Under the pieces are notes generated by a model. It was not told the DNA's origin, searched no databases, and saw only the letters and a program-made list of their open reading frames with translations. The position numbers and the translations under genes are program-made. Below, piece by piece: positions 2 through 32,869 of a stretch of 32,994 nucleotides of DNA. The stretch comes from Planctomycetota bacterium (GTDB lineage: Bacteria > Planctomycetota > Phycisphaerae > UBA1845), in the NCBI GenBank assembly GCA_024276605.1, contig JAJRWX010000043.1:1-32994 (forward strand), read 5' to 3'. Positions within the stretch are counted from its first letter, which is position 1. Each line of letters opens with the position of its first letter.

Positions 2-127
2 CTTCGTGAAGAAACGGCTGCCTGGTCAACTGATGTTAATGCAACGCAACGAGGCGTTGATTGGCAAATGAAAATCGAAGACGCACGGTGCAAACTGAAG
101 TCCGTATATCCCAAAATTAAGGCGTGA
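2..127 (+). CDS. IS630-family transposase, C-terminal fragment (cut by window edge)
   Basis: The reading frame is open from the left edge and ends in TGA at 125-127. The 41 visible residues include the pieces EETAAWSTDVNATQ, VDWQMKIEDARCKL and VYPKIKA. They follow the well-known C-terminal pattern of IS630/Tc1-mariner type transposases: an AW...RN-like stretch, then W.(F/M)...DAR.KL..(L/V)YP. The catalytic DDE residues lie outside the window. The stop codon sits inside the terminal repeat of the element, which ends at base 135, as is common for compact insertion sequences. Whether the copy is intact cannot be judged from this end alone. Confidence 0.82.
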   Translation, partial: LREETAAWSTDVNATQRGVDWQMKIEDARCKLKSVYPKIKA

Positions 128-137
128 CAAAGCACTA
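118..137 (+). repeat. Right end of the IS630-type element with TA target dinucleotide
   Basis: After the transposase stop the sequence runs GTGACAAAGCAC (124-135) and then TA (136-137). The 15 bases 124-138 match the right end of the MITE-like element at 29139-29154 with one mismatch. IS630 elements are known to insert at TA, often within CTAG, and duplicate the TA, so base 135 is the likely last base of the element. The left end is outside the window. Confidence 0.6.
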
Positions 138-187
138 GTGCCTTTACGATAGGCGTAGGCATCGCGCTATATGTTACCCGCGAGCCG

Positions 188-1780: not shown

Positions 1781-2053
1781 GGTTGCTCCCCGATCAATGG
1801 TGACGAATTATTATAAGCCCATGACGCTAAGGTCGAGTCGGCCTGATGTCAACGACGCCATGTCACCCAGCCTGTGATTGTGTGTGCTGGGCCACTGCAG
1901 GATTCCCGCCAGCGAGGGTATGACGAAGTGGTGCTGCATGGCCTGTCAACTGGAAAATACTCCCTGGCCGAGTACAGTATCTAATTGCCACTGAGCTTGG
2001 CGTCATCGACGAGGGTGTCGGATGCGAAGGCTTATATCCTAACAGGTTTGACT

Positions 2054-4990
2054 ATGCGCTCTAATTTGACAGCCAACCAATTGAGACAGGAATTTCTTGA
2101 CTTCTTTCATGGCAAAGGTCACGAAATCGTCCAATCATCTCCGGTGGTTCCACACGATGATCCGACGCTGCTTTTTACTAATGCGGGGATGAATCAGTTC
2201 AAAGACGTTTTCTTAGCTACAGGTACGCGACCGTATAAGCGGGCGGCTGATACGCAGAAGTGCATCCGGGCGGGCGGTAAGCATAACGATCTCGACGACG
2301 TCGGGCAGGATACCTATCACCACACGTTTTTCGAGATGCTCGGCAACTGGTCTTTCGGTGATTATTTCAAAAAGGAGGCCATCGCCTGGGCCTGGGAATT
2401 GTTGACCGAGGTTTGGGGTATCGACAAATCGCGTCTGCACGTGACGTACTTCGAGGGTGATACGGCGGATGGGCTAGAGCCTGATACGGAAGCGGCTGAG
2501 CTGTGGAAAAATGAAACTGACATTGATCCGACACACATACACCCGGGCAATAAAAAAGATAACTTCTGGGAAATGGGCGAGACGGGTCCATGCGGGCCGT
2601 GCAGCGAGATTCATGTTGATACGACGCCCGACAAAAGCGGCGCTGCATTGGTTAATGCCGGTGATGCGCGGGTGATAGAAATTTGGAATCTGGTGTTTAT
2701 CCAATTCAATCGGGCTGGGGATGGGAAGTTGTCTCCCTTACCGGCTAAGCACGTGGATACGGGCATGGGGTTCGAGCGACTCTGTGCCTTGATGCAGGGG
2801 AAATCCAGCAACTACGACACGGATGTGTTTTCACCAATTTTTGAGGCCATACAAAAGCGAACCGGCGCGCCGGCGTATAAAGGACTGCTGCCGGGAATGC
2901 CGACGGATCACCCGGATCACACGCAACTCATGGTGGACGTGACCTATCGCGTGATGGCGGACCATATCCGTTGCCTGACATTTGCGATTACCGATGGGGC
3001 TATGCCTAGCAACGAAGGGCGAGGTTACGTACTTCGGCGGATTCTTCGCCGGGCGGTGCGCTATGGTAGGCAATATCTCAATATGCACGAACCGTTTCTT
3101 TGCGATCTTATCAAACCGTTGGTCGAGCACATGGGCGACGTCTTTCCCGAACTGCGTGACGGTCCGGACGCGAATCGTCCACGCGACAATGTAGCGTACA
3201 TCGCTGAAATACTTCGCGATGAAGAGGCGTCGTTCGGTAAAACGTTGGATCGGGGCATCAAGCTGTTCAACGAGGCGGCGGACCATGCCCGTAAACATCA
3301 TCATAGCCGAGTGAGCGGAGACGATGCATTCAAGTTGCATGATACCTACGGCTTCCCCATCGACCTCACCGAACTCATGGCTGAGGAGCAAGAACTGACG
3401 GTTGATATTGGTGAGTATGAACGGTTGATGGAAGTGGCACGCGAGAAGGCACGTAAACCATGGTCTCGACAGGGCGACTTTTTTAATGATGCTGAATCAC
3501 GATTGATGATGCGGCAATCTGCCTCACAGCCGACGAGGTTCGTCGGTTGGGATACCACAGAATCTAGAGCGAAAGTTCTTTGGGTTACGGCTGGTAGTAA
3601 TCCAGATGGCGACGCTCTTTATATCGACCAAGACGAAAACAAACGTGCGGCAATAGTTTTGGATCAAACTCCATTTTATGCAGAGAAAGGCGGACAGGTT
3701 GGCGACCGAGGTGTTATTGAAACTACGACTGGCGAATTCGTAGTTGATGAAGTCGTCGAATTGGATGAACGTATTGTACATTTAGGGCATTGCACACGTG
3801 GACGTATATGGTGCTACGACCCGGAATCTATAAAACATTCTCCCCAGCTACCAGCTACAACTCACCCACGGGAGCAAGCAAAGGCTGTTGTTGATGTCAG
3901 TTGTCGCATTCCCATCATGCAGAATCACACCGGTACACATATTTTAAATTGGGCGTTGCGGGAAGTGTTGGGGGATCATGTGCAGCAGAAGGGGTCGTTG
4001 GTTGATTCGGAGAAGACGCGGTTCGACTTTTCTCATCCTAAGCCGCTCACTGACGAGGAGTTGGCACGGATTGAAGACCTGTGCAACGGGCAGATCGAGG
4101 CTGACTATCACGTTTATACCAAGGAAGTTGACCAGGAGGCAGCGCGAAAAATTAATACATTGCGAGCCGTGTTCGGTGAGAAGTATCCCGATGTTGTGCG
4201 CGTCGTTTCCGTTGGCGCGGATATTGACGACATGTTGGCTAATCCCGCTGATCCCAAGTGGATGAAGTATTCCGTGGAATTTTGCGGTGGTACGCATCTC
4301 AAGACCAGCCGAGAAGCAGAGCGATTGGTACTTACGTCTGAGGAGGGTGTGGCGAAGGGTATACGTCGATTGGTGGGTGTGACCGGTGATACCGCGAAGC
4401 AGGCTATCGAAACTGGTGAAGCGTTTGTACTGGAAGTTGATGCGTGCTCTGAGAATGATTCTTTGTCCGAGTGTCTTGCAGACATCCAAAACCGAATCAA
4501 TACATCCATCATTCCACTACGCACGCGAAGGATGCTACTCGACAAGTTGGCGGAGTTACAAAAAATCGCCAAAAAACAGGATAAACTGGCTGACTCAGCT
4601 TCTGCGGATGATGTCCGAGAGAAGGTAGCTGCTTTACTCGATGAGGCGGAAACCATAGGCGATGTACGGATGGTGGTTGGCGAAGTCCCTACGGCTAAGA
4701 GCGATGCGCTGCGTGGCGCGATTGATTGGATACGCCAAAAGACGGACGCCTCAGCCGTGCTGCTGGTTTGCGTGGATGACGGAAAGGTGACACTTCTAGC
4801 TGGTATGAGTAAATCCGTAGTTGGTAAAGGCGTCAAAGCCGGCGATTTAATAAAAGAAATTGCCCCATTGGTCGGTGGTCGTGGTGGCGGCAGACCGGAC
4901 ATGGCTCAAGGCGGCGGCAACGATCCAGCAGGAGTGACAAGCGCGTTGAACAATGCTAAACAATGGATCACCAACAAGCTGAGTGCATAG
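2054..4990 (+). CDS. alaS: Alanine--tRNA ligase
   Basis: This enzyme charges tRNA-Ala with alanine in the cytoplasm and clears mischarged Ser/Gly-tRNA-Ala. The catalytic core starts with the typical RQEFLDFFHGKGHEIVQSSP and TLLFTNAGMNQFKDVFL segments. The editing domain shows the zinc-binding HTGTH motif (H625, H629) and CGGTH (C744, H748). The C-terminal DHHA1-type domain ends in GGRGGGRPDMAQGGG. I chose ATG 2054 (978 aa) because the family sequence begins right after it. An in-frame TTG at 1985 would add 23 residues with no family character. It is about 100 residues longer than the E. coli enzyme. A lightly AT-richer stretch at roughly 3550-3850 lies between the aminoacylation and editing regions and may hold part of the extra length. 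It stands alone, with about 550 noncoding bases after it. Confidence 0.98.
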   Translation: MRSNLTANQLRQEFLDFFHGKGHEIVQSSPVVPHDDPTLLFTNAGMNQFKDVFLATGTRPYKRAADTQKCIRAGGKHNDLDDVGQDTYHHTFFEMLGNWSFGDYFKKEAIAWAWELLTEVWGIDKSRLHVTYFEGDTADGLEPDTEAAELWKNETDIDPTHIHPGNKKDNFWEMGETGPCGPCSEIHVDTTPDKSGAALVNAGDARVIEIWNLVFIQFNRAGDGKLSPLPAKHVDTGMGFERLCALMQGKSSNYDTDVFSPIFEAIQKRTGAPAYKGLLPGMPTDHPDHTQLMVDVTYRVMADHIRCLTFAITDGAMPSNEGRGYVLRRILRRAVRYGRQYLNMHEPFLCDLIKPLVEHMGDVFPELRDGPDANRPRDNVAYIAEILRDEEASFGKTLDRGIKLFNEAADHARKHHHSRVSGDDAFKLHDTYGFPIDLTELMAEEQELTVDIGEYERLMEVAREKARKPWSRQGDFFNDAESRLMMRQSASQPTRFVGWDTTESRAKVLWVTAGSNPDGDALYIDQDENKRAAIVLDQTPFYAEKGGQVGDRGVIETTTGEFVVDEVVELDERIVHLGHCTRGRIWCYDPESIKHSPQLPATTHPREQAKAVVDVSCRIPIMQNHTGTHILNWALREVLGDHVQQKGSLVDSEKTRFDFSHPKPLTDEELARIEDLCNGQIEADYHVYTKEVDQEAARKINTLRAVFGEKYPDVVRVVSVGADIDDMLANPADPKWMKYSVEFCGGTHLKTSREAERLVLTSEEGVAKGIRRLVGVTGDTAKQAIETGEAFVLEVDACSENDSLSECLADIQNRINTSIIPLRTRRMLLDKLAELQKIAKKQDKLADSASADDVREKVAALLDEAETIGDVRMVVGEVPTAKSDALRGAIDWIRQKTDASAVLLVCVDDGKVTLLAGMSKSVVGKGVKAGDLIKEIAPLVGGRGGGRPDMAQGGGNDPAGVTSALNNAKQWITNKLSA

Positions 4991-5250
4991 GCAAGAGAAT
5001 ACGTGCAGGAAAATTCTGCTGGAATAACACTTGAAAGAAAATCTCTTTCAGGTATGGGACACCCAGCGAATCAGAGCACCACGGCGCAAGCCTGGTGACC
5101 CGGTCATAGGTTGGCGCGGGTGGCCTTGTTAACGCATGTGAACATGTTGGCGTGCGTTTGTCCGCAGGCTGGCGCCGTGCGGCTCTGATTTGATTATCCT
5201 GGTGGTAGCGCGTGCTAGATGACTGGTGGTTGCGCATGCCAAATGACTTC

Positions 5251-11589: not shown

Positions 11590-14500
11590 ATGTCTAACGC
11601 GTTTCGTATTCACAGACTACTTATGGTGGTTGTGGTCTCGTCAGCGGTAGCCGCCCCGACCTGGGGGCAAGCGCCGATGCGGGTCGGCGAGCATTTTCCT
11701 ATCACCATTGATTCGTCGGCGCCTTCAGCCTTCGAAACCGCGAGTACACCGGATGGTCGAATCTTCGAGGTCGGGCACAAGGGAGCTACTTATATCGCCC
11801 TGCACTTCTCCGATTTCGATCTCGAAGATGACGAAATGGTCATCGTATCCGATGTGAGAGGTATTCAGCGATACACGCTCACTGGGGAAGGCAAGATGGA
11901 GGCCGGTACCTTTTGGGCACAACATATCAAGGGTGACACGGTGGTCATCGAATATGTGTCCAAGGGCGGCAGTGAGGAAAGTCCCGACTTTGTGATTGAC
12001 GAGTACGTAGCGGGAAACGTGAACCTCGGCGGTCCGGTCATCGAGTCCATTTGCGGCGCCAACGATTTTGAAAACGCCGTCTGTCGTTCCCCGTCGATCG
12101 AGTACGATCGCGGTAAAGCGGTTGCACGGCTACTGATTAATGGATCTAGTCTGTGTACCGGGTGGCTAGCTTCTGCGAACAGCCATCTAATTACCAACGA
12201 ACATTGCATTACGACGGCTTCAGATGCGCTTAACACGGATTATGAGTTTATGGCTGAAGCCCCAAGTTGCGGTTCCTCGAACTGCCAGTTGTGCTTTCCC
12301 GGTACCGTTTTCTCCGGTGCGACATTCATCCAGGATAGCCCCGGCCTCGATTACGCGCTGGTTCAAATCAACAATGGAAACCCAGCCGCGACATACGGAT
12401 TTTTGGCGATCGACAACCGCACTGCGGTAGTTGGCGAACAGGTCTACCTTGTCTCGCACCCCTCGGGCCGGGCGAAGGAATTCGCATACAACAGTTCAGA
12501 GGATGCGGGCGGCGTCGGAACCGTTTTATCACTGAATGAGGCGAGTTGTAGCGGTGCAACGCAGGAAATCGGCTATAACAATGATACGGAAGGTGGAAGC
12601 TCGGGATCGCCGGTATTGGCGGTTTCAAGTCAAAAGGTTATTGCCCTTCATCACTGTCGGGGCAATGCACTCAATTGCGGTGACCCCAACCGAGGCGTGC
12701 CCATCGATCAAATTTGCGCGGAGATCTGCGGATTTCTAGGGCCGCAGTGTAGTATTAACGCCGATTGCGACGACGCCGATCCCTGTACCACGGATGTTTG
12801 TTCAGGCGGTAGTTGCTCGAATACCCCGATTTCCTGTCCTACCGGTCAGGTTTGCAACGGTGGTGTCTGTGAAGGTCAGGGTGCTTGTTGTTCAGGTACC
12901 TCTTGCACGATCAGCAGTCCAACGAACTGCACCGGCTCTTACTTGGGCGACGGCTCTGCGTGCGGCACCGGTCAGGCCGGCAATCCCGCCACCTATCAGA
13001 ATGCGCCGAACGTAACTATTCCAGACGGTGGTGGTTCCGGCAACCCCGCTACCGATACAATCAATGTACCGGATTCCGTCACCATTGGTGACCTCGATGT
13101 CGACTTCACGATCTCACACACTTGGGTGGGTGACCTGACCGTGCAGATTTCGCACGGCGGTACGACGGTGACTATCATGGATCGTCCCGGTGTACCCGGT
13201 TCCACCTATGGTTGCAGCAATGACAACTTTAGTGGTACGCGGCTTGACGATGAGGGAACCGGCGGAACCATTGAATCACAATGTGCAGCCAATCTTTCAT
13301 CACCGCCTAACTATACGCCGAACAATCCCATGAGCGCGTTTGACGGTATGGATTCGGCAGGTGCCTGGACCATCACCGTCTTCGACAGCGTCAGCGCCGA
13401 CGGCGGTACGTTGAACAGTTGGTCGTTGTATATCGACGGCGTGGGTTCAAACCCATGTACGGGTTGCACGACCAATGCCGAGTGCGACGATGGCGTGTTC
13501 TGCAATGGTGCGGAAACTTGTGTAGCCGGTAGTTGCCAGGCGGGCACGGCTGTGGATTGCAATGATGGCGTCGGTTGCACGACGGATTCTTGTAACGAAG
13601 GCACGGCGTCTTGCGACAATATTCCCAATGACGGCAACTGCGATGACGGCCTGTTCTGCAACGGTGCAGAAACGTGCGATGCGGTGAACGATTGCCAGGC
13701 CGGCACCGCTGTCAACTGCAATGACGGCGTCGCCTGTACGGACGATTCCTGCAACGAGGGTACAAACTCGTGTGACAACATTGCCAACAATGCCAACTGC
13801 GATAACGGCATCTTCTGCGACGGTGCGGAAACCTGCGATGCGGTCAACGATTGCCAAGCCGGTACAGCGGTTAATTGTAACGACGGCGTCGGCTGTACGG
13901 ACGATTCGTGCAACGAAGCCACGAACTCATGCGATAACATAGCCAACAACGCCAATTGCGATGACGGTTTATTCTGCAACGGTACCGAAACCTGCGATGC
14001 AGTTAACGATTGCCAAGCAGGCACAGCTGTCAATTGCAATGACGGCGTTGGATGTACGGACGATGCGTGCAACGAAGCGACGAATTCGTGCGATAACGTA
14101 GCCAACAACGCCAATTGCGATGACGGTTTGTTCTGCAACGGTACCGAGACCTGTGATGCGGTCAACGATTGTCAGGCAGGTACTGCCGTCAACTGCAACG
14201 ACGGTGTTGGCTGTACGGACGATGCGTGTAACGAGGGTACGAACTCGTGTGACAACATCGCCAATAATGCCAACTGTGATAACGGTATCTTCTGCGACGG
14301 TGCAGAAACCTGCGATGCAGCATTGGATTGCCAAGCAGGAACAGCAGTCAACTGTAATGACGGCGTCGGCTGTACCGATGATTCGTGCAACGAAGGCACA
14401 AACTCGTGCGACAATATAGCCAACAATGCCAATTGCGATGACGGTTTGTTCTGCAATGGCTCCGAAATCTGTGATGCGGTCAACGACTGTTTGGCTGGGA

Positions 14501-16626
14501 CGGCGGTCAATTGCAACGACGGCGTCGGGTGTACGGACGATTCGTGCAACGAAGCGACGAACTCGTGCGACAACGTGGCTAACAATGCCAACTGTCCGGA
14601 CGACGGCATTTTCTGCAATGGAACGGAAAGCTGTAGCGCAACGTTGGATTGCGTATCCAGCGGCGATCCGTGTGGAGGTTTGGCATGCGACGAGGGCACG
14701 GCTTCATGTGTGACTTGTCTGATTGATGCGGATTGTGACGACGGTTTGTTCTGCAACGGCGTTGAAACCTGTTCGGCTGGTACGTGTCTGTCAGGTACGG
14801 CAGTTGATTGTAATGATGGCGTTGGATGTACGACTGATTCGTGCAACGAAGCGACAGCCTCGTGTGATAATGTGGCTAACAACGCCAGTTGTGATAATGG
14901 CATTTTCTGCGATGGCGCCGAGATATGCGATGCCGTGTTTGATTGTCAGGCAGGCACAGCCGTTAACTGTGATGACGGCGTCGCTTGTACGGATGATGCG
15001 TGCAACGAAGGCACGAACTCGTGTGACAACGTGGCGAACAATGCCAATTGCGATGACGGTTTGTTCTGCAACGGCGTCGAGACCTGCGATGCGGTAAACG
15101 ACTGTTTGACAGGTTCCGATCCATGTCCGGGACAGCTCTGCGATGAGGGTACCGCAACGTGTAACGATTGCCTAGTCGATGCCGATTGCGATGACGGCGT
15201 ATTCTGTAATGGTGCTGAAACCTGTTTGGCCGGCGTATGCCAGGCAGGTACAGCCGTCAACTGCAACGACGGCGTTGCCTGTACGGATGACTCATGCAAC
15301 GAGGCGACGGCATCGTGTGACAACATCGCCAACGATGCCAACTGTGACAACGGTCTCTTTTGTGACGGCGTGGAAACCTGCGATGCGGTGCTCGATTGCC
15401 AAGCAGGGACAGCGGTCAATTGCAACGACGGTGTTGCTTGTACGGACGACTCGTGCAATGAAGGCACGAATTCGTGCGACAACGTCGCCAATAATGCCAA
15501 CTGTCCTGATGATGGTCTCTTCTGCAACGGAACGGAAAGCTGTGACGCGATCAACGATTGCGTCTCCAGCGGTGATCCCTGTCAGGTTAATCAGGTTTGC
15601 AACGAAGTAACCAACGCGTGCGATTCGACGGGTCCGCCTCCAGGCGAGGGCTTCATCCTTTCGCGTAACGCCGACTTCTCTACGGACGATCGTTCCTTCT
15701 TCCGGAACGAAACGCTGTATATGAAGATGTGGACCGATCAGGTGGACTTCAACGACATTAGCCGGGAACGGTATGAGTTGAAAGATACCGGCGGTACCCG
15801 AATCAGGAATCCGTTGACAAACCATCTTGACGGATCCTGGACGGCTAGTTTTGTGCTGAACAACCTGCCCACCAACGACACCGTGTGGACTTGGAAGGGC
15901 GAGGTCAAGGACAATCCCGGCAATCGGTACAAGCCACAAGTCGATATTACCGTACTGGATGCACCGGCTTGCAGCATTAACGCTGATTGTGATGATGGCG
16001 ATGCCTGTACGACGGATGTGTGCTCGGCTGGAACTTGTTCCAACACACCCATCAGTTGCGACGATGGTGACCCATGTACGTCAGATACATGTTCCGGCGG
16101 TGTCTGCTCCAACAATCCACTACCGACATGCTGCGGCGATGGATTCTGCGACCCCGGCGAGGATTCGTGTAACTGTCCGTCGGATTGCGGAGCGCCTCCG
16201 GCTTCAGAAACGAATTGTACGGATGGAATCGACGAGGATTGTGACGGTAAAACCGACTGCGCCGATGCGGATTGCAGCGGTGACCCGGCTTGCAGTACGC
16301 CGACCGGTGAAGGGTACATCCTGTCATTGAATCCGGACTTCTCAACGGATGATCGGGTCTACAACCGGAACGATATCATCTACATGAAGGTCTGGTCGGA
16401 TCAGGTGGACTTTAACGATATGAATCGTGAACGGTGGGAACTCAAGGATCCCAATAAAAACAAGATACGACAGCCGATGACCAACCATTTCGATGGAACG
16501 TGGACCGCATCTTTTGATCTTACAGGTCTACCCAGCGGTGATACGAGCTGGACGTGGAAGGGCGAAGTTAAGGACAATCCCGGCACCAGTTTCAAGCCGA
16601 CGGATGTGATTACAGTGAATCCCTAG
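11590..16626 (+). CDS. Giant secreted trypsin-like serine protease with P-domain and Cys-rich repeats
   Basis: This 1678-aa protein is exported by a signal peptide (residues 1-26, ending PTWG before Q27). Residues about 140-385 are a trypsin-like protease with the full triad: H205 in TNEHC, D254 in GLDYALV and S338 in GGSSGSP. Residues 385-462 are Cys-rich. Residues about 463-617 match a proprotein-convertase P-domain (TIGDLDVDFTISHTWVGDLT ... AWTITVFDS). Residues 628-1347 hold 14 Cys-rich repeats of mostly 53 aa. Two copies of a 104-aa module of unknown family (1353-1457 and 1574-1678) enclose another Cys-rich stretch. P-domains often follow secreted bacterial proteases. The product is probably extracellular or cell-surface and processed. 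No PEP-CTERM or similar sorting tail is visible. AGGAGG before ATG 11590 decides the start. A strong terminator follows. Confidence 0.93.
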   Translation: MSNAFRIHRLLMVVVVSSAVAAPTWGQAPMRVGEHFPITIDSSAPSAFETASTPDGRIFEVGHKGATYIALHFSDFDLEDDEMVIVSDVRGIQRYTLTGEGKMEAGTFWAQHIKGDTVVIEYVSKGGSEESPDFVIDEYVAGNVNLGGPVIESICGANDFENAVCRSPSIEYDRGKAVARLLINGSSLCTGWLASANSHLITNEHCITTASDALNTDYEFMAEAPSCGSSNCQLCFPGTVFSGATFIQDSPGLDYALVQINNGNPAATYGFLAIDNRTAVVGEQVYLVSHPSGRAKEFAYNSSEDAGGVGTVLSLNEASCSGATQEIGYNNDTEGGSSGSPVLAVSSQKVIALHHCRGNALNCGDPNRGVPIDQICAEICGFLGPQCSINADCDDADPCTTDVCSGGSCSNTPISCPTGQVCNGGVCEGQGACCSGTSCTISSPTNCTGSYLGDGSACGTGQAGNPATYQNAPNVTIPDGGGSGNPATDTINVPDSVTIGDLDVDFTISHTWVGDLTVQISHGGTTVTIMDRPGVPGSTYGCSNDNFSGTRLDDEGTGGTIESQCAANLSSPPNYTPNNPMSAFDGMDSAGAWTITVFDSVSADGGTLNSWSLYIDGVGSNPCTGCTTNAECDDGVFCNGAETCVAGSCQAGTAVDCNDGVGCTTDSCNEGTASCDNIPNDGNCDDGLFCNGAETCDAVNDCQAGTAVNCNDGVACTDDSCNEGTNSCDNIANNANCDNGIFCDGAETCDAVNDCQAGTAVNCNDGVGCTDDSCNEATNSCDNIANNANCDDGLFCNGTETCDAVNDCQAGTAVNCNDGVGCTDDACNEATNSCDNVANNANCDDGLFCNGTETCDAVNDCQAGTAVNCNDGVGCTDDACNEGTNSCDNIANNANCDNGIFCDGAETCDAALDCQAGTAVNCNDGVGCTDDSCNEGTNSCDNIANNANCDDGLFCNGSEICDAVNDCLAGTAVNCNDGVGCTDDSCNEATNSCDNVANNANCPDDGIFCNGTESCSATLDCVSSGDPCGGLACDEGTASCVTCLIDADCDDGLFCNGVETCSAGTCLSGTAVDCNDGVGCTTDSCNEATASCDNVANNASCDNGIFCDGAEICDAVFDCQAGTAVNCDDGVACTDDACNEGTNSCDNVANNANCDDGLFCNGVETCDAVNDCLTGSDPCPGQLCDEGTATCNDCLVDADCDDGVFCNGAETCLAGVCQAGTAVNCNDGVACTDDSCNEATASCDNIANDANCDNGLFCDGVETCDAVLDCQAGTAVNCNDGVACTDDSCNEGTNSCDNVANNANCPDDGLFCNGTESCDAINDCVSSGDPCQVNQVCNEVTNACDSTGPPPGEGFILSRNADFSTDDRSFFRNETLYMKMWTDQVDFNDISRERYELKDTGGTRIRNPLTNHLDGSWTASFVLNNLPTNDTVWTWKGEVKDNPGNRYKPQVDITVLDAPACSINADCDDGDACTTDVCSAGTCSNTPISCDDGDPCTSDTCSGGVCSNNPLPTCCGDGFCDPGEDSCNCPSDCGAPPASETNCTDGIDEDCDGKTDCADADCSGDPACSTPTGEGYILSLNPDFSTDDRVYNRNDIIYMKVWSDQVDFNDMNRERWELKDPNKNKIRQPMTNHFDGTWTASFDLTGLPSGDTSWTWKGEVKDNPGTSFKPTDVITVNP
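13471..15630 (+). repeat. Array of 14 Cys-rich repeats, mostly 159 bp (53 aa)
   Basis: Typical units read CDDGLFCNGAETCDA, then CQAGTAVNCNDGVGCTDD, then SCNEGTNSCDNIANNA, with about eight Cys each. Adjacent units such as those starting at 13636 and 13795 are exactly 159 bases apart. Units 8, 11 and 14 are a different closing type with SGDPC or GSDPC and a shorter end. Units 1, 9 and 12 are an opening type with C.AG.C. The array is thus three blocks of 8, 3 and 3 units, and the first block seems expanded by duplication of inner units 2-7. Synonymous differences show that the copies are not all recent. Confidence 0.95.
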
Positions 16627-27893: not shown

Positions 27894-28868
27894 TCACATA
27901 CCAATGATGTTGTGACGAAGTTGCGACCACTCGTCGGTAGGTATGCTCAGAAATGCGTCGACGGCCAATGGATCAAAGTGACTTCCGGAAGCACGTTTGA
28001 TTTCATCCCCAGCCTGGGAGGGTGACATGGGTTGGCGATAGGGTCTCGCAGACGTGAGCGCATCGTACACATCGGCAACGGCAAAGATTCGTGCGCCTAG
28101 TGGGATTTCAGCTCCACTCAATCCGCGAGGATACCCGCTGCCATCAAATCGTTCGTGGTGACAGTTCACAATCTGGATAGCATCAGCAAGAAATGGTACG
28201 GAAGCTAGAATTTTTGCGCCCATATCCGGGTGCGTCCGCATGCATTGCCATTCCTCGTCCGTCAACGGTCCTGGTTTGAGTAGGATTCGGTCCGGAATAC
28301 CTATTTTTCCGATGTCATGCAGCAACGATCCCAGGGCGAGCGCGTGTTTGACTTGGCCCGAAACGGTCAATTGTCTAGCTAGCCGCAATGAGTAGGCGCA
28401 CACCCGTTCCGAATGTTGTTCGGTGTCATGTTCACGGGCATCCAGCGCGGCGACAAGCGCGCGCACAGCGCCCTGGTATGTTTTTGCCCGTTCGCTAATC
28501 GCTTGTTTTTCACGTTGGACCATGACGCCGGCAATCGCTGCAATGGCCCAGAACGTCAGCACTTCTCCCACTTGGTTGATGTTCTCGGTGGTTTCACCCG
28601 ACCATTGTAACGCCACGTGTGGCAAGTAAAGTGCTGTGATGGCTAACGCCGTCAGCAGTGCGCCTTTAAGCGTCAACCATACCGCCGCCAATACAATGGG
28701 AATCAAAAACATCTTTCGGAGCAACACGTGGATAGCGTGATCGGTGATGTTTGCGCGAGGTGTCCACCAGTGTGCGCCGGCTACAGCTAGAACACATAGT
28801 GCAACGAACGCCATTCGAAGGCGCCTGTTTCCAATGTCTTCATCCGTTGGAATGATTAAACCATTCAT
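27894..28868 (-). CDS. Membrane-bound HD-GYP domain protein
   Basis: From ATG 28868 (GGAG seven bases before it; an ATG at 28910 has none) the product is 324 aa. The N-terminal third holds about four membrane helices (residues 17-35, 55-72, 75-95 and 103-122). The HD-GYP domain follows from about 135: AREHDTEQHSERVCAYSLRL, HDIGK (H184, D185), HH-containing NCHHERFDG and GYP (245-247). HD-GYP proteins hydrolyse cyclic di-GMP or related dinucleotides, so a role in lifestyle switching is likely. No extracytoplasmic sensor domain is present. The membrane region itself may sense. The MITE-like element lies about 110 bases before its start and could affect its promoter. Confidence 0.9.
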   Translation of the reverse strand: MNGLIIPTDEDIGNRRLRMAFVALCVLAVAGAHWWTPRANITDHAIHVLLRKMFLIPIVLAAVWLTLKGALLTALAITALYLPHVALQWSGETTENINQVGEVLTFWAIAAIAGVMVQREKQAISERAKTYQGAVRALVAALDAREHDTEQHSERVCAYSLRLARQLTVSGQVKHALALGSLLHDIGKIGIPDRILLKPGPLTDEEWQCMRTHPDMGAKILASVPFLADAIQIVNCHHERFDGSGYPRGLSGAEIPLGARIFAVADVYDALTSARPYRQPMSPSQAGDEIKRASGSHFDPLAVDAFLSIPTDEWSQLRHNIIGM

Positions 28869-28977
28869 GATTATGCTCCATGATCCTTTGGAAGCGGATC
28901 GAATCCCCATGGCATTGGCTAGTCATCATACCGGAACTTACGGGCAAGTGACGTCATCCCTGAGTCATCAACTGCGC

Positions 28978-29153
28978 TAGTGCGGTGTCACAGCTTCATG
29001 TTCGGGTTCATCCAGGGTGGCATGGGCAACGTTTTTTTTGCCCGTGTCGGCCTCTGGAACTACACGGGTAAGTCCCGATGTATCCCGACGTAAAGTCAGG
29101 ATACATCGGGACTTACCCATGCCACCCGAATTCTTAGCTGTGACATAGCACTA
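28978..29153. mobile_element. MITE-like element with IS630-type ends and TA duplication
   Basis: The ends GTGCGGTGTCACAGCT (28980-28995) and AGCTGTGACATAGCAC (29136-29151) are inverted copies with two mismatches, flanked by TA on both sides inside a restored CTAG target. The 172-bp body has no gene. Nested inside are GGGTGGCATGGG/CCCATGCCACCC (29015-29026 and 29116-29127), GGGCAA/TTGCCC (29024-29043) and a perfect 20-bp repeat with a 13-base loop (29066-29085 and 29099-29118). The right end matches the IS630 end at 124-138 at 14 of 15 bases, which suggests the same transposase moved it. It ends two bases from the stop codon of the VWA gene and may serve as its terminator. Confidence 0.8.
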
Positions 29154-29155
29154 GG

Positions 29156-30646
29156 TTATTGACGATGGTGTTCCGACAGATACCGCCGGTAATCCGTCTC
29201 TTTCTTGATCTGCCTCCGCGCCTCGTTGTGGTCGTGGATCATCGCGCGTTCACCGGCAGCCGAAAGCTCAGCCATAAAATGCCTGAGCAAGAAGGTTTGA
29301 TTGAGTAATTGTTGGTCCCGCGTGCTGATTGCGTGTTTGTGTGCAGTTTCATAGTAATGATCGAATAATGCGCGGGCTTCATTGAATCGGTCGAGGTCCA
29401 AGCTCTGCATGGCCTCCTCCGCTTTTTCCATGGCGTTGAGCACGTTGGCATACACTAACACGTTTTCGTTTTCGCTCTTTCGGGCCTGATCGGCGTTTGT
29501 AGAAAACTTAGCCTCACTCCGGACGGTATATTGATTTCGCGCACCTGTCTCCGGGCTATCGAGTGTGATGGTTACGTCGACACCGACCTTCGAACCGTCC
29601 ACAAACGAACGTGGCGCAAGCTCGACAAGAAACGAGCCTTGCTCACCCACACGAATGTCGCCGAGTGCAAATGTATATGAAGGCTCAGGTTTACCCATAG
29701 GACGCCCGTACACCCGCGTAATATCCGCTCCGGATGCCACGCGTATGTCCAGCTTGACATTTTGTGCAACGACATCAAGCAAGCCGTCCAACTCCGCCGC
29801 CACCGCGCCGGGTATCAGTTCGCTCGAGCGGACGTACGTATAACGGCCTCCGCCAGCCTTAGCCAAGTTCGATAGCGTTTCTTCGCTGAATTCGGTTCCG
29901 CACCCAAGCGTCGATACGCCAATGCCGCGGGCGTGTGCGGCGCTGACAAGTTTCTGTAGTTTTTCGGGATCGGTGACACCTCGATTCGCCATACCGTCGG
30001 TCAGGACAATGACCCGTTTCAATTGCCCGTCGGCACGCTTGCCGTCGATTTGAGCAAACGCCTCCAACAACGCGGCACTCAGGTTTGTGTTGCCACTAGG
30101 GCCGAATTGTCCAAGACGATAGCGAAGGAAATCCTTATTGACCGCCTGTCCGGCAGGCGACAGTACGGTGACTGTGTCGTTGAACGCGATCAAGGAGACG
30201 ATATCTTGTTCCAAGAGATTTTCAAACACAATGTATGCCGCGTGCATGGCATGTTTGAACTTATGTTCATCGGCCATAGACCCGGACCGGTCGAACACCA
30301 AAGCCAGGTTGAGCGGTTGCCGTTTTTGCGGTTGTGTCTTCGCTACACTTAGATCGATTTTCAGCATGAGGCGTTCGGGAGTGGATTGACTGTAGAGTGA
30401 ATGACTCAGCGCTGCCTTTATTGTGATAGGTCCGGCTACGACCTCGCTAGCCGGTGAAGAAGCGTGGTCGTGCCCTTGTGCATGTTCGTTGCCATCGAAT
30501 GCGGTCAATACGACGTCAGACATGACCGGCGGCGCACTCGTAAGTAAATGGTCGTCACCTGTATCTCCCGTTCGGCAACCCCAAAGCGATAGCGGCACTA
30601 AAGCAACCAGGATCAATCGACGACTTCTTGACACGGTGATCATCAT
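29156..30646 (-). CDS. VWA-domain lipoprotein
   Basis: The 496-aa protein has a lipoprotein signal (basic start, LVALVPLSLWGC with C24). After a short His/Asp-rich linker a strand domain leads into a von Willebrand factor A domain from about residue 112. Its metal site is intact: D119-R-S121-G-S123, the Thr of SGNTNLS and the Asp of VLTDGMAN. Regions after about 300 form a beta-sandwich (VGEQGSFLVELAP) and a helical C-terminus. This layout resembles YfbK-type secreted VWA proteins. VWA domains bind protein ligands through a metal ion. It overlaps the stop of the Gly/Tyr-rich gene by four bases (ATGA), so the two are translated together and may interact at the cell surface. Confidence 0.9.
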   Translation of the reverse strand: MMITVSRSRRLILVALVPLSLWGCRTGDTGDDHLLTSAPPVMSDVVLTAFDGNEHAQGHDHASSPASEVVAGPITIKAALSHSLYSQSTPERLMLKIDLSVAKTQPQKRQPLNLALVFDRSGSMADEHKFKHAMHAAYIVFENLLEQDIVSLIAFNDTVTVLSPAGQAVNKDFLRYRLGQFGPSGNTNLSAALLEAFAQIDGKRADGQLKRVIVLTDGMANRGVTDPEKLQKLVSAAHARGIGVSTLGCGTEFSEETLSNLAKAGGGRYTYVRSSELIPGAVAAELDGLLDVVAQNVKLDIRVASGADITRVYGRPMGKPEPSYTFALGDIRVGEQGSFLVELAPRSFVDGSKVGVDVTITLDSPETGARNQYTVRSEAKFSTNADQARKSENENVLVYANVLNAMEKAEEAMQSLDLDRFNEARALFDHYYETAHKHAISTRDQQLLNQTFLLRHFMAELSAAGERAMIHDHNEARRQIKKETDYRRYLSEHHRQ

Positions 30647-32244
30647 GTTCGTATGACCTGTTCGCCAGCCTTCGTTTGCGGCTCCTGCGCATCGCTCTTT
30701 TCTTCATCATGGGAATGGCCGGACGATTCGTTGTTATTCAAGGGAGGTAGTACCTCAGGAGGTAATACCTCAGGTGCTTCCTCCGGACTGACTAACGGAC
30801 GTGGCACCATCAAACTTTCCCCTTGCATGGAACGCTGGTATTCCACGTTCTCGTATTGACTACGTGACGTCTGGGGTGGGTATCCAGGATAAACAACACC
30901 GGCATCTGCGGTATCCTCATCCGGGTTCTCGACATAAACCGGGGAGTAGGTGTATGAGTTGTCGTAATAGGTTGTGGAATCGTATCCGTCGTAGCCGTAT
31001 GGGTAGTATCCGAAGCCCCAAGACGATCCGTAGTATGGGGAGTAGTAGCCATAACCCGCATACAAGCCTAAGCCATAGTGCCCGTAATAGCCACCGTAGT
31101 GTCCATAACCGTAACCATACCCAAGACCATATCCACCATAACCGTATCCATGCCCGAGACCGTAACCGCCGTAACCGTAACCATGTCCTAGACCATATCC
31201 ACCATAACCATAACCATGTCCGAGGCCATACCCGCCGTAACCATAACCATGCCCAAGGCCAGACCCGCTATAACCGTAACCGTGTCCAAAGCCGGACGCG
31301 CCGTGACCGTAGCCATAACCACTGTTATGACCGAGACCGTATCCACTGCTGTGACTGACGCTACTGCCAAGACCGTGACCCCCACCATATCCATATCCAT
31401 GCGAACTGCCACCAAGGCCACCGCTACCATGACCGATACTGGCATATCGTCCCGTATGTCCGGAGCTAGCATGACTTGAACCGGTTCCGTAGAGGCGCTT
31501 GTACCCGCCACCTCCGGCGTGCCCATAACGACTTACTCCGCTATGCGAGCTGTTACTGGCGTACCGGCTTGCTGAACTGGTGCCGTGCGTGCTACCGATA
31601 GTTTGCCTTGTTGATCCGTGTCCATATCCGCGTGACGTGTGCGAAGAACGACCACCGTAGGTGCTATGCGTACTTCCCAACGAGCCGCTATGTCCGCCGC
31701 GTGTGACGGACTGGTGACCCCGACCGGTGGAGCCAAGGTGTCCACTTCGTCCGGAAGCAGTGTGGCCACTGCTTCGTTGTATGGCATTAGATCTTGAGTG
31801 TCCGGTCCGACTCCCGCTGTGTCCGACGTATCCTCGACTTGTTCCGCGATGTGAGCTACTGCGTGATGCGGACCTTCCGGAATGCCGAGAGGCGCTTCCA
31901 CGACCGATCGAACGACTGCGACTGGAGCTTCTCGATGAATGTCCGCTGCGTCCGACGTATCCTCGACTTGTACCGCGATGCGAGCTACTGCGTGATGCGG
32001 ACCTTCCGGAATGCCGAGAGGCGCTTCTACGACCGATCGAACGACCGCGGCTGGAACTTCTCGATGAATGTCCTCCGCGTAGGCTTCCGCCGCGATGTCC
32101 GGAGGCGTGACCGCCTCCGCTATGACCACCACCGCCGTGCCCACCGCCACCGTGTTGTGCTAAAACGGGTGTTGGGTTGCCCAAAGCGAAACCAAAAATC
32201 GCAACAGCAGCGAGACAAAGATTGAACCGTGATGACTGTCGCAT
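30643..32244 (-). CDS. Secreted Gly/Ser/His/Tyr-rich low-complexity protein
   Basis: From ATG 32244 (AGGAG eight bases before it; a start at 32340 would add 32 residues before the signal) the product is 533 aa. It has a signal peptide ending VLA before Q30, a GGGGH-rich start, a Ser/Arg/His-rich part with a 43-aa tandem duplication, a Gly/His/Tyr part with an 11-aa repeat (GLGHGYGYGGY), a Tyr-rich section (YYGHYGLGLYAGYGYY) and a charged tail with Pro, Glu and a HSHDEE segment. There is no known domain. Composition resembles structural or adhesive matrix proteins, and the His and acidic groups could bind metal. It heads an operon with the VWA lipoprotein. Function is inference. Confidence 0.85.
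   Translation of the reverse strand: MRQSSRFNLCLAAVAIFGFALGNPTPVLAQHGGGGHGGGGHSGGGHASGHRGGSLRGGHSSRSSSRGRSIGRRSASRHSGRSASRSSSHRGTSRGYVGRSGHSSRSSSRSRSIGRGSASRHSGRSASRSSSHRGTSRGYVGHSGSRTGHSRSNAIQRSSGHTASGRSGHLGSTGRGHQSVTRGGHSGSLGSTHSTYGGRSSHTSRGYGHGSTRQTIGSTHGTSSASRYASNSSHSGVSRYGHAGGGGYKRLYGTGSSHASSGHTGRYASIGHGSGGLGGSSHGYGYGGGHGLGSSVSHSSGYGLGHNSGYGYGHGASGFGHGYGYSGSGLGHGYGYGGYGLGHGYGYGGYGLGHGYGYGGYGLGHGYGYGGYGLGYGYGYGHYGGYYGHYGLGLYAGYGYYSPYYGSSWGFGYYPYGYDGYDSTTYYDNSYTYSPVYVENPDEDTADAGVVYPGYPPQTSRSQYENVEYQRSMQGESLMVPRPLVSPEEAPEVLPPEVLPPLNNNESSGHSHDEEKSDAQEPQTKAGEQVIRT
31110..31310 (-). repeat. 33-bp tandem repeats coding GLGHGYGYGGY
   Basis: Related units recur exactly every 33 bases: the CCATG/CCGTG core sits at 31148, 31181, 31214, 31247 and 31280. 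They are diverged at synonymous positions and lie wholly within the Gly/Tyr-rich gene. The period of 11 codons keeps the reading frame. Confidence 0.85.
31821..32078 (-). repeat. 129-bp tandem duplication in the Ser/Arg/His-rich part
   Basis: Unit 1 starts at 31821 and unit 2 at 31950, each opening GTCCGACGTATCCTCGACTT. The copies are nearly identical, which suggests a recent duplication. 129 bases is 43 codons, so the frame is kept. Confidence 0.85.
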
Positions 32245-32869
32245 GATGTTACTCCTGAGCGGTCGACGACGTGGCCCAACGGCGAGCCAAGCTCGTGCCG
32301 CAGTAGCGATGGAAGGCAGTCCTTCGCAGACCCTCGTCACTGAGGATTATATGCCGCGGTAGCGAATGAGAACAGTCTTTTCCGGCTTATCGTCACCGGA
32401 CACTATATTAGATGCTAGGGTCGTCTACTTTCTTCCCAATACAACCTTAATGCGTATGCGGAAAAACCACTACGGCGCTATTGAAACGGTACGGAAGGCG
32501 TTTTTTGAATTGGTGAAGTGGTTATCGGCCATAGCCCAATGACATACGGTTATAATGCAAACAGGAATGTTAATACTCCTCTCCTTCCCAATCCGAGCCG
32601 AAAGCGCCAGCGCCCGGTGTCTCCGGATGGTCACACACGTGATGCATGTTCTTTGTGTTCGCGGCGTCAGTGGCGGGTTGAAGACACGGGTCGCTTGCGC
32701 TCGCCGCTCGGATGGTATTGGTGAACCTACCTCATATTTTTCCTTTGTAGGGAGACTTGTAACAGGCACTATCGTGCCCCCAAAAAGATTTTTATCTGGA
32801 TTATTGGTGTTTTTGTTGCTACGGTGAACGGTTGTGTAGGTGGGTTCCGTTGGTAGGGGGTACGAGGGA
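32245..32869. other. Divergent intergenic region
   Basis: These bases lie between the start of the Gly/Tyr-rich gene (minus) and the last gene (plus). Short frames here, including one of 90 codons at 32555-32827, lack an export signal, ribosome site or family character and I do not call them. AAGGCGTTTTTT at 32495-32506 followed by TTGAATTGG matches the promoter-proximal motif at 16758-16769. A TATAAT-like box (32551-32556) lacks a fitting -35 box. Confidence 0.55.

Follow-up and report, generated by a model that had tools for sequence, protein, structure and literature searches.

The element at positions 28977-29154 of the window (by which we mean the whole stretch of DNA analysed here, 32,994 nucleotides of a Planctomycetota contig) raises the question of where its ends and its interior come from, and of what has moved it. 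It lies just after the stop codon of a gene encoding a vWA-domain protein (29156..30646, minus strand), and the large ORF that follows downstream on that strand encodes an HD-domain protein (Pfam HD_5; 27894..28910). The end of the vWA gene is intact, since its homologues in the genomes G003, G015, and G038 align with it to residue 495/496. The two genomes of the same genus, G001 and G002, contain no match to the vWA gene at E 1e-30, and the HD gene finds no match in the flanks of the three vWA homologues (in G015 a flank of only about 270 bp downstream). Beside the vWA gene, an ORF of 565 aa (30643-32340) has a very high content of His, Gly, Ser, and Tyr; elsewhere in the window, 11590-16626 encodes a predicted protein of 1678 aa with many Cys-rich repeats, e.g. 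NGxETCDAVNDCQAGTAVNCNDGVGCTDDSCNE.

A reading of the window made from its sequence alone (hereafter the sequence-only reading) had described a MITE-like element with 19-bp inverted ends, two mismatches, CTAG at both sides, and a duplicated TA. Recomputation confirms this with the same coordinates: 17 of the 19 bases at 28977-28995 are identical to those in the reverse complement of 29136-29154, and the two copies of the target TA (28978..28979 and 29152..29153, no strand) each stand within CTAG. The whole element measures 178 bp including these flanks, the body between the TAs (28980-29151) being 172 bp long. When the whole window was scanned with arm spans of 101-251, 2 of 4,955,518 placements gave inverted repeats of 19 bp with no more than two mismatches. 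The second one, a 122-bp repeat (5069-5190) downstream of the ORF 1985-4990, carries AATCAGAGC at its ends and recalls the interior of the 110-bp MITEs described below. The coding capacity of the 172-bp body is at most 57 codons, and no ORF of at least 80 aa overlaps it. The predicted folding energy is -116 kcal/mol for the plus strand (z -14.9) and -111 kcal/mol for the minus strand (z -16.6), values equalled by none of 200 shuffles in either case. On one point the sequence-only reading has to be corrected: it had proposed three nested hairpins, and the predicted fold consists instead of an outer stem, formed by the ends of the element, and two hairpins side by side (29021-29046 and 29063-29121).

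A candidate source of these ends is present at the left edge of the window, where the contig starts inside an IS630 element: the C-terminal 41 aa and stop codon of a transposase (2..127, plus strand) are followed by the IS630 right end with its CTAG (120..138, plus strand). The 41-aa piece alone matched no Pfam or NCBIfam model. In the genome to which the window belongs (4.5 Mb in 110 contigs; hereafter the own genome), the C-terminal residues recur with 100% identity at 11 places (38-41 residues present in each), all either directly at the end of a contig or some 50 bp away from it; the IS left end and the beginning of the transposase gene were read by eye at eight further contig ends. The middle of the IS is not seen assembled because the assembly breaks at the IS630 copies; accordingly, the own genome yielded the ends of the IS630 but no complete assembled copy. 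IS630 or MITE copies form the ends of many of its contigs, so that these repeats limit the assembly. Relatives of the 41-aa peptide occur in 20 of 51 genomes of the family, and those of G032, G035, G061, and G069, all from other genera, are 92-95% identical to it over the compared residues. A copy in G032 (locus L127, 334-1560) extends over 1227 bp including both CTAGs and contains, behind a stretch of seven A, two frames with an ATGA overlap. This full-length homologue matches Pfam HTH_32 and DDE_3 as well as NCBIfam transpos_IS630, the cut-off of the latter being passed by the second frame and not by the first alone. The IS630-type transposase assigned to the left edge from sequence alone is thus real and present in multiple copies.

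The right end of the MITE (29128..29154, minus strand) matches the IS630 left end, and its last bases GTGACATAGCACTAG (29140-29154) are identical to the IS630 end GTGACAAAGCACTAG (124-138) at 14 of 15 positions, the figure originally put forward. A consensus of 27 own-genome copies of 170-180 bp agrees with the IS left end at 25/25 positions, the window copy at 24/25. Averaged over these 27 copies, oriented by their IS-left-like end, the right end scores 23.7/25 against the IS left end and 17.8/25 against the IS right end. The left MITE end (28977..29014, plus strand) resembles the IS630 right end, to which it is a moderate match, weaker than that of the other end: the window copy agrees at 19/25 positions with the IS right end and at 18/25 with the IS left end, and the means are 20.3/25 and 19.3/25, respectively. 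In the consensus comparison one copy (C60) stands in reversed orientation and the G032 left end is cut one base late. The view of 28977-29154 as an IS630-derived MITE is therefore supported, more strongly by its right end than by its left.

A search for further copies, which the sequence-only reading had advised, recovered many of them. Among 166 candidates in the own genome, 40 scored matches are 141-178 bp long and 89-100% identical to the element. A 22-base hairpin-arm pattern allowing up to three mismatches matched the same genome 81 times forward and 83 times in reverse (reversed control: 0), from which, with two arms per copy, about 82 copies can be estimated. The arm pattern had no match in G001, G002, G032, G035, G069, or G061. 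Full-length matches were confined to the own genome; at E 0.01, 14 of 60 genomes, the own one included, gave some match (up to 13 candidates being scored in each), and in a sample of the phylum only the own genome, one of 392, matched at E 1e-6 (two candidates scored per genome). The 27 aligned copies have their junctions in common and show a mean pairwise identity of 91.6% (82-99%). Among these copies, the apex of hairpin 2 (window 29085-29100) occurs in both orientations, the variants being CCGACTTTACGTCGGG in five and CCGACGTAAAGTCGGG in four, CCGACTATACGTCGGG in three and CCGACGTATAGTCGGG in three, the remainder being other variants or not located; the hairpin tips look as if flipped by template switching or cruciform processing.

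IS630 prefers CTAG as a target, and ISY100 moves by cut and paste. Here a C precedes TA at 66 of 71 ends, and the complete C-TA...TA-G arrangement is found at 31 of the 36 own-genome elements with paired ends more than 50 bp apart. A sibling copy on contig 9 sits on the TA of a stop codon; the gene was read by eye as leuS, and its end is now formed by the TAG of the element. CTAG appears to be preferred rather than required, because the inferred target at contig 9 is CTAA. The sequence-only reading had also called for an empty site, and this locus provides one: the leuS-like junction lacks the element in both same-genus genomes, being contiguous in G002 and occupied in G001 by a different spacer with a hairpin of its own. 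In the most likely mechanism, the IS630 transposase would cut at the MITE ends and paste the element into a TA, mostly within CTAG. At seven joints on the own-genome contigs C10, C39, C40, C42, C52, C74, and C104, two TIR-like ends (up to four mismatches) meet at a single TA, and similar joints exist in G032 (loci L135, L136, L140, L142, and L146; up to five mismatches). The ends of the element are plausible as insertion targets, given that the window contains one CTAG per 579 bp; we claim no firm excess.

The context of these sites was examined at the 31 of the 36 paired elements for which a single locus includes 450 bp to either side. An ORF of at least 100 aa runs across the insertion site at 5 of 31 sites, compared with 99 of the 124 controls placed at a distance of 250-350 bp, and at 27 of 31 at least one neighbouring ORF, as called roughly, has its 3' end towards the element. 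Together with the strong predicted fold of both strands, the place of the window copy just after a stop codon, and that of the contig-9 copy on one, this orientation could indicate that the copies are kept as RNA elements at gene ends, serving as terminator, RNase III site, or 3' stabiliser, with their transposon history secondary. We regard such an account as quite improbable, since no terminator-like or promoter-like site was found in 28800-29300, the window and six sample loci gave no Rfam match at the gathering score, the leuS-like junction exists in both same-genus genomes without the element, and an intergenic bias alone could account for the positions. The element may affect neighbouring transcripts.

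Bases 29015-29127, the interior of the element, are foreign to IS630 and form an inverted pair of GGGTGGCA-tagged hairpins. From left to right it consists of the tag GGGTGGCA (29015..29022, plus strand), hairpin 1 (29021..29046, plus strand) with eight T in its loop, a 16-base linker (29047..29062, plus strand), hairpin 2 (29063..29121, plus strand) with 27-base arms that are 93% complementary, and the tag again, inverted (29120..29127, minus strand). Two inverted palindromes with a common end tag, GGGTGGCA at 29015 and at 29120, constitute the structure of a REPIN or BIME. As the tag is GGGTGGCA, we do not file the interior under the GTAG or CGTC superfamilies.

Such doublets are not confined to the own genome. 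Of 51 family genomes, 21 contain the 15-mer GGGTGGCAYGGGYAA, at up to 178 places in a genome; all reversed controls together gave a single match. In the own genome the 15-mer has 173 matches, against the approximately 164 that about 82 copies would lead one to expect, so that most doublets there seem to ride on IS630 ends. Elsewhere it forms inverted pairs, mostly 73-94 or 188-210 bp in length in the sampled loci. The doublets of G061, G062, and G033 lie inside other outer repeats, and those of G060, G018, and G007 were read by eye as lying inside IS630-like ends of other sequence. That assignment rests on reading by eye because the generic test for TA-bounded inverted ends is weak: around 28 doublets of other genomes, 6, 4, 3, and 1 reached at least 11, 12, 13, and 14 of 18 positions, the mixed-pair control giving 5.8, 3.2, 2.1, and 1.7% at the same thresholds. 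Within the genus, the motif matches 44 times in G002 and 12 times in G001, and none of nine loci chosen from the matches of the 60-genome search (seven from G002, two from G001; one tag each at up to one mismatch) has an IS630 end at five mismatches or fewer. In G061, with 45+40 motif matches, a related element of about 200 bp (L280-L283, L288, and L293) has the same tagged ends and long structured loops.

The fold of the doublet is corroborated by covariation. In 13 doublets, 12 from other genomes and one from an own-genome element of 145 bp, the two-hairpin fold has 97.8% paired cells, and 5 of 21 pairs have changed on both sides. Its covariation score was reached by none of 500 shuffles; on one of the five measures, further pair types, 491 of 500 shuffles scored as high as the alignment. 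A single long hairpin was also considered and rejected, as it shows no compensatory change compared with the five such pairs of the two-hairpin fold; in single strands both folds are possible. The two hairpins of most aligned doublets differ in loop length (AAAC-TTG-TTT for the short loop, AAGC-NNNN-GCTT for the long), so that the pairs are heterodimers.

Judged from sequence, the interior resembles the hairpins that flank RAYT/Y1 (HUH) transposase genes. RAYT homologues are present at E 1e-15 in 35 of 51 family genomes. Scans with the motif at Y1-transposase loci gave few matches (31 loci at up to three mismatches; 20 more, and three again, at up to one mismatch), and the association was settled by a search of 30 closer homologues for inverted repeats of any kind spanning the gene, together with a scripted control. 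By eye, the best inverted repeat across the RAYT gene contains GGGTGSCA at 13 of these loci, TGTGCCACTGCTC at seven, GGGTGSCCC or a near variant at six, and none of the tags at four. The scripted scan with the wider tag GKGTGSC found tag and hairpin upstream of 18 and downstream of 21 of the 30 RAYT genes, and on both sides of 15, compared with 2 of 55 control windows; it takes the gene start at 1501 in all loci but one, so that flanks may be misplaced near contig ends. The closest RAYT hairpin comes from another genus: at a locus of G021 (L315), the RAYT gene is flanked by a GGGTGGCACGGGCAAG hairpin, reading GGGTGGCACGGGCAAGCGTACTCGCTTGCCCGTG, of the same design as in the interior of the MITE, the part GGGTGGCAYGGGCAA being common to both; an internal stop interrupts this RAYT gene. 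At E 1e-15 a single RAYT of this subfamily is present in the own genome, which is matched in two pieces in different frames and may be decayed or mis-assembled; its flanking hairpins carry the tag on a different stem.

This difference in stem is one reason to ask whether the element is simply an ordinary IS630 MITE whose inner hairpins are generic palindromic filler that resembles REPs, with no capture involved; another is that prokaryotic MITEs usually form stable stem-loops (PMC10969869, PMC2229807, in the parts consulted). We consider this unlikely in view of the distribution of GGGTGGCAYGGGYAA over 21 of 51 genomes, in sampled loci both with and without IS630-like ends, of the recurrence of GGGTGGCA on RAYT-flanking hairpins, and of the way in which shorter relatives of the element end. 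The own genome contains a 110-bp MITE (L051) whose ends agree with those of the 178-bp element at 29/30 and 27/30 positions; beyond them the agreement falls to 10/30 and 4/30, so that homology stops at the border of the doublet. Four other 110-bp elements have 22-26/30 and 25-26/30 end bases in common with it, and in G032 ends of this kind enclose different interiors (the end counts of these elements are left out of this comparison, several being shifted by one base). Because the 110-bp and G032 elements share ends and differ inside, it appears that the ends stayed and that the interior was exchanged for the REP doublet.

We therefore favour, with a probability of roughly three in four, the interpretation of the element as an IS630-ended MITE that took up a REP doublet (REPIN) as cargo and was then amplified. 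A shorter IS630 MITE of the 110-bp type would have had its interior swapped for the doublet, and the resulting hybrid would have spread to about 82 copies in the own genome by the IS630 route. Which transposase moves the MITE, how the doublet entered, and by which route the copies spread are points that we infer from these comparisons, as is the independence of this movement from RAYT; the order of events, ends kept and interior swapped, we infer likewise. A doublet in G018, from another genus, has by eye a closely similar right junction, which suggests that the hybrid either predates the burst in the own genome or has moved between genera. Alternatively, REP doublets could have inserted repeatedly and independently into existing IS630 MITEs serving as landing sites, the hybrid not moving as a unit. 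The differing sequence of the IS630-like ends read by eye around doublets in G060, G018, and G007 would be in line with this, as would the REP dimers inside palindromes recorded in other bacteria (PMC3733652 section 7). We judge it very unlikely, however, because the 27 own copies have identical junctions, because changes that mark subfamilies run together through the interior (by eye), and because in two relatives the entire unit is missing from the sibling locus.

If the favoured capture of a doublet by an IS630 MITE is correct, the REP doublet as IS630-MITE cargo would show that two classes of tiny elements exchange parts. A more far-reaching proposal, which we advance tentatively and with rather less than even confidence, is that the REPIN lineage changed its transposition machine, the RAYT (HUH) gene decaying and the doublet multiplying through the IS630 (DDE) ends that it gained. 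Were this the case, the hybrids seen by eye in G018, G060, and G007 would represent either a repeated switch or a repeated capture of REP doublets within the family. The hybrid suggests that small mobile repeats can switch their transposition machine, and would suggest how hairpins outlive or outrun their own transposase. A testable system is at hand in the own genome, with its IS630-ended doublets, and in the same-genus genomes, where the nine sampled loci are without such ends.

IS630-linked MITEs are well known, and REPINs are thought to depend on their own RAYT in the way that MITEs depend on their parent IS. The Correia/NEMIS elements of Neisseria differ from the present MITE in their ends and interior. 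They are likewise TA-bounded MITEs, with more than 120 copies and stem-loops in transcripts; the passages seen also describe promoters and an IHF site for them (PMC10969869, PMC2229807), whereas 28800-29300 contains no promoter-like match. Also close is RUP of Streptococcus pneumoniae (107 bp, 108 copies), which is also short and multicopy, with TA at its ends and ends like those of the resident IS630-Spn1; it differs in that the consulted part of PMC2229807 mentions for it neither a REP doublet nor a pair of foreign, tagged hairpins. The interior shares with REPINs/BIMEs and their RAYT (TnpA_REP) the inverted pair of tagged hairpins, the high copy number, and the tag on hairpins that flank the RAYT gene (PMC3116915, in part); it differs in having GGGTGGCA in place of the GTAG or CGTC tag (PMC3733652) and in being nested in IS630 ends. 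Sections 7 and 16 of PMC3733652 describe TIRtrons and Y1 transposase genes flanked by non-GTAG repeats, and mention in section 7 that REP dimers are regularly enclosed by other palindromic tracts, so that nesting as such has a precedent, although the outer palindromes are not identified there as transposon ends. What is new here is the hybrid, in which the outer palindrome around a REP doublet is identified as the ends of a resident IS630; in the literature screened, mostly by title and for some papers by passage, we found no description of an IS630 MITE with a REP-doublet cargo, and four motif strings were absent from it. With the Tc1/mariner-IS630 family, to which ISY100 belongs, the element has in common the TA target, which is duplicated (PMC2170065, in part); these are autonomous elements, in contrast to the 172-bp MITE. 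The partner IS630 (L127) differs from ISY100/IS630 in its two ORFs overlapping by ATGA after seven A. This run of A, at L127 843-857 just before the overlapping stop and start of the two frames, is a possible programmed frameshift site.
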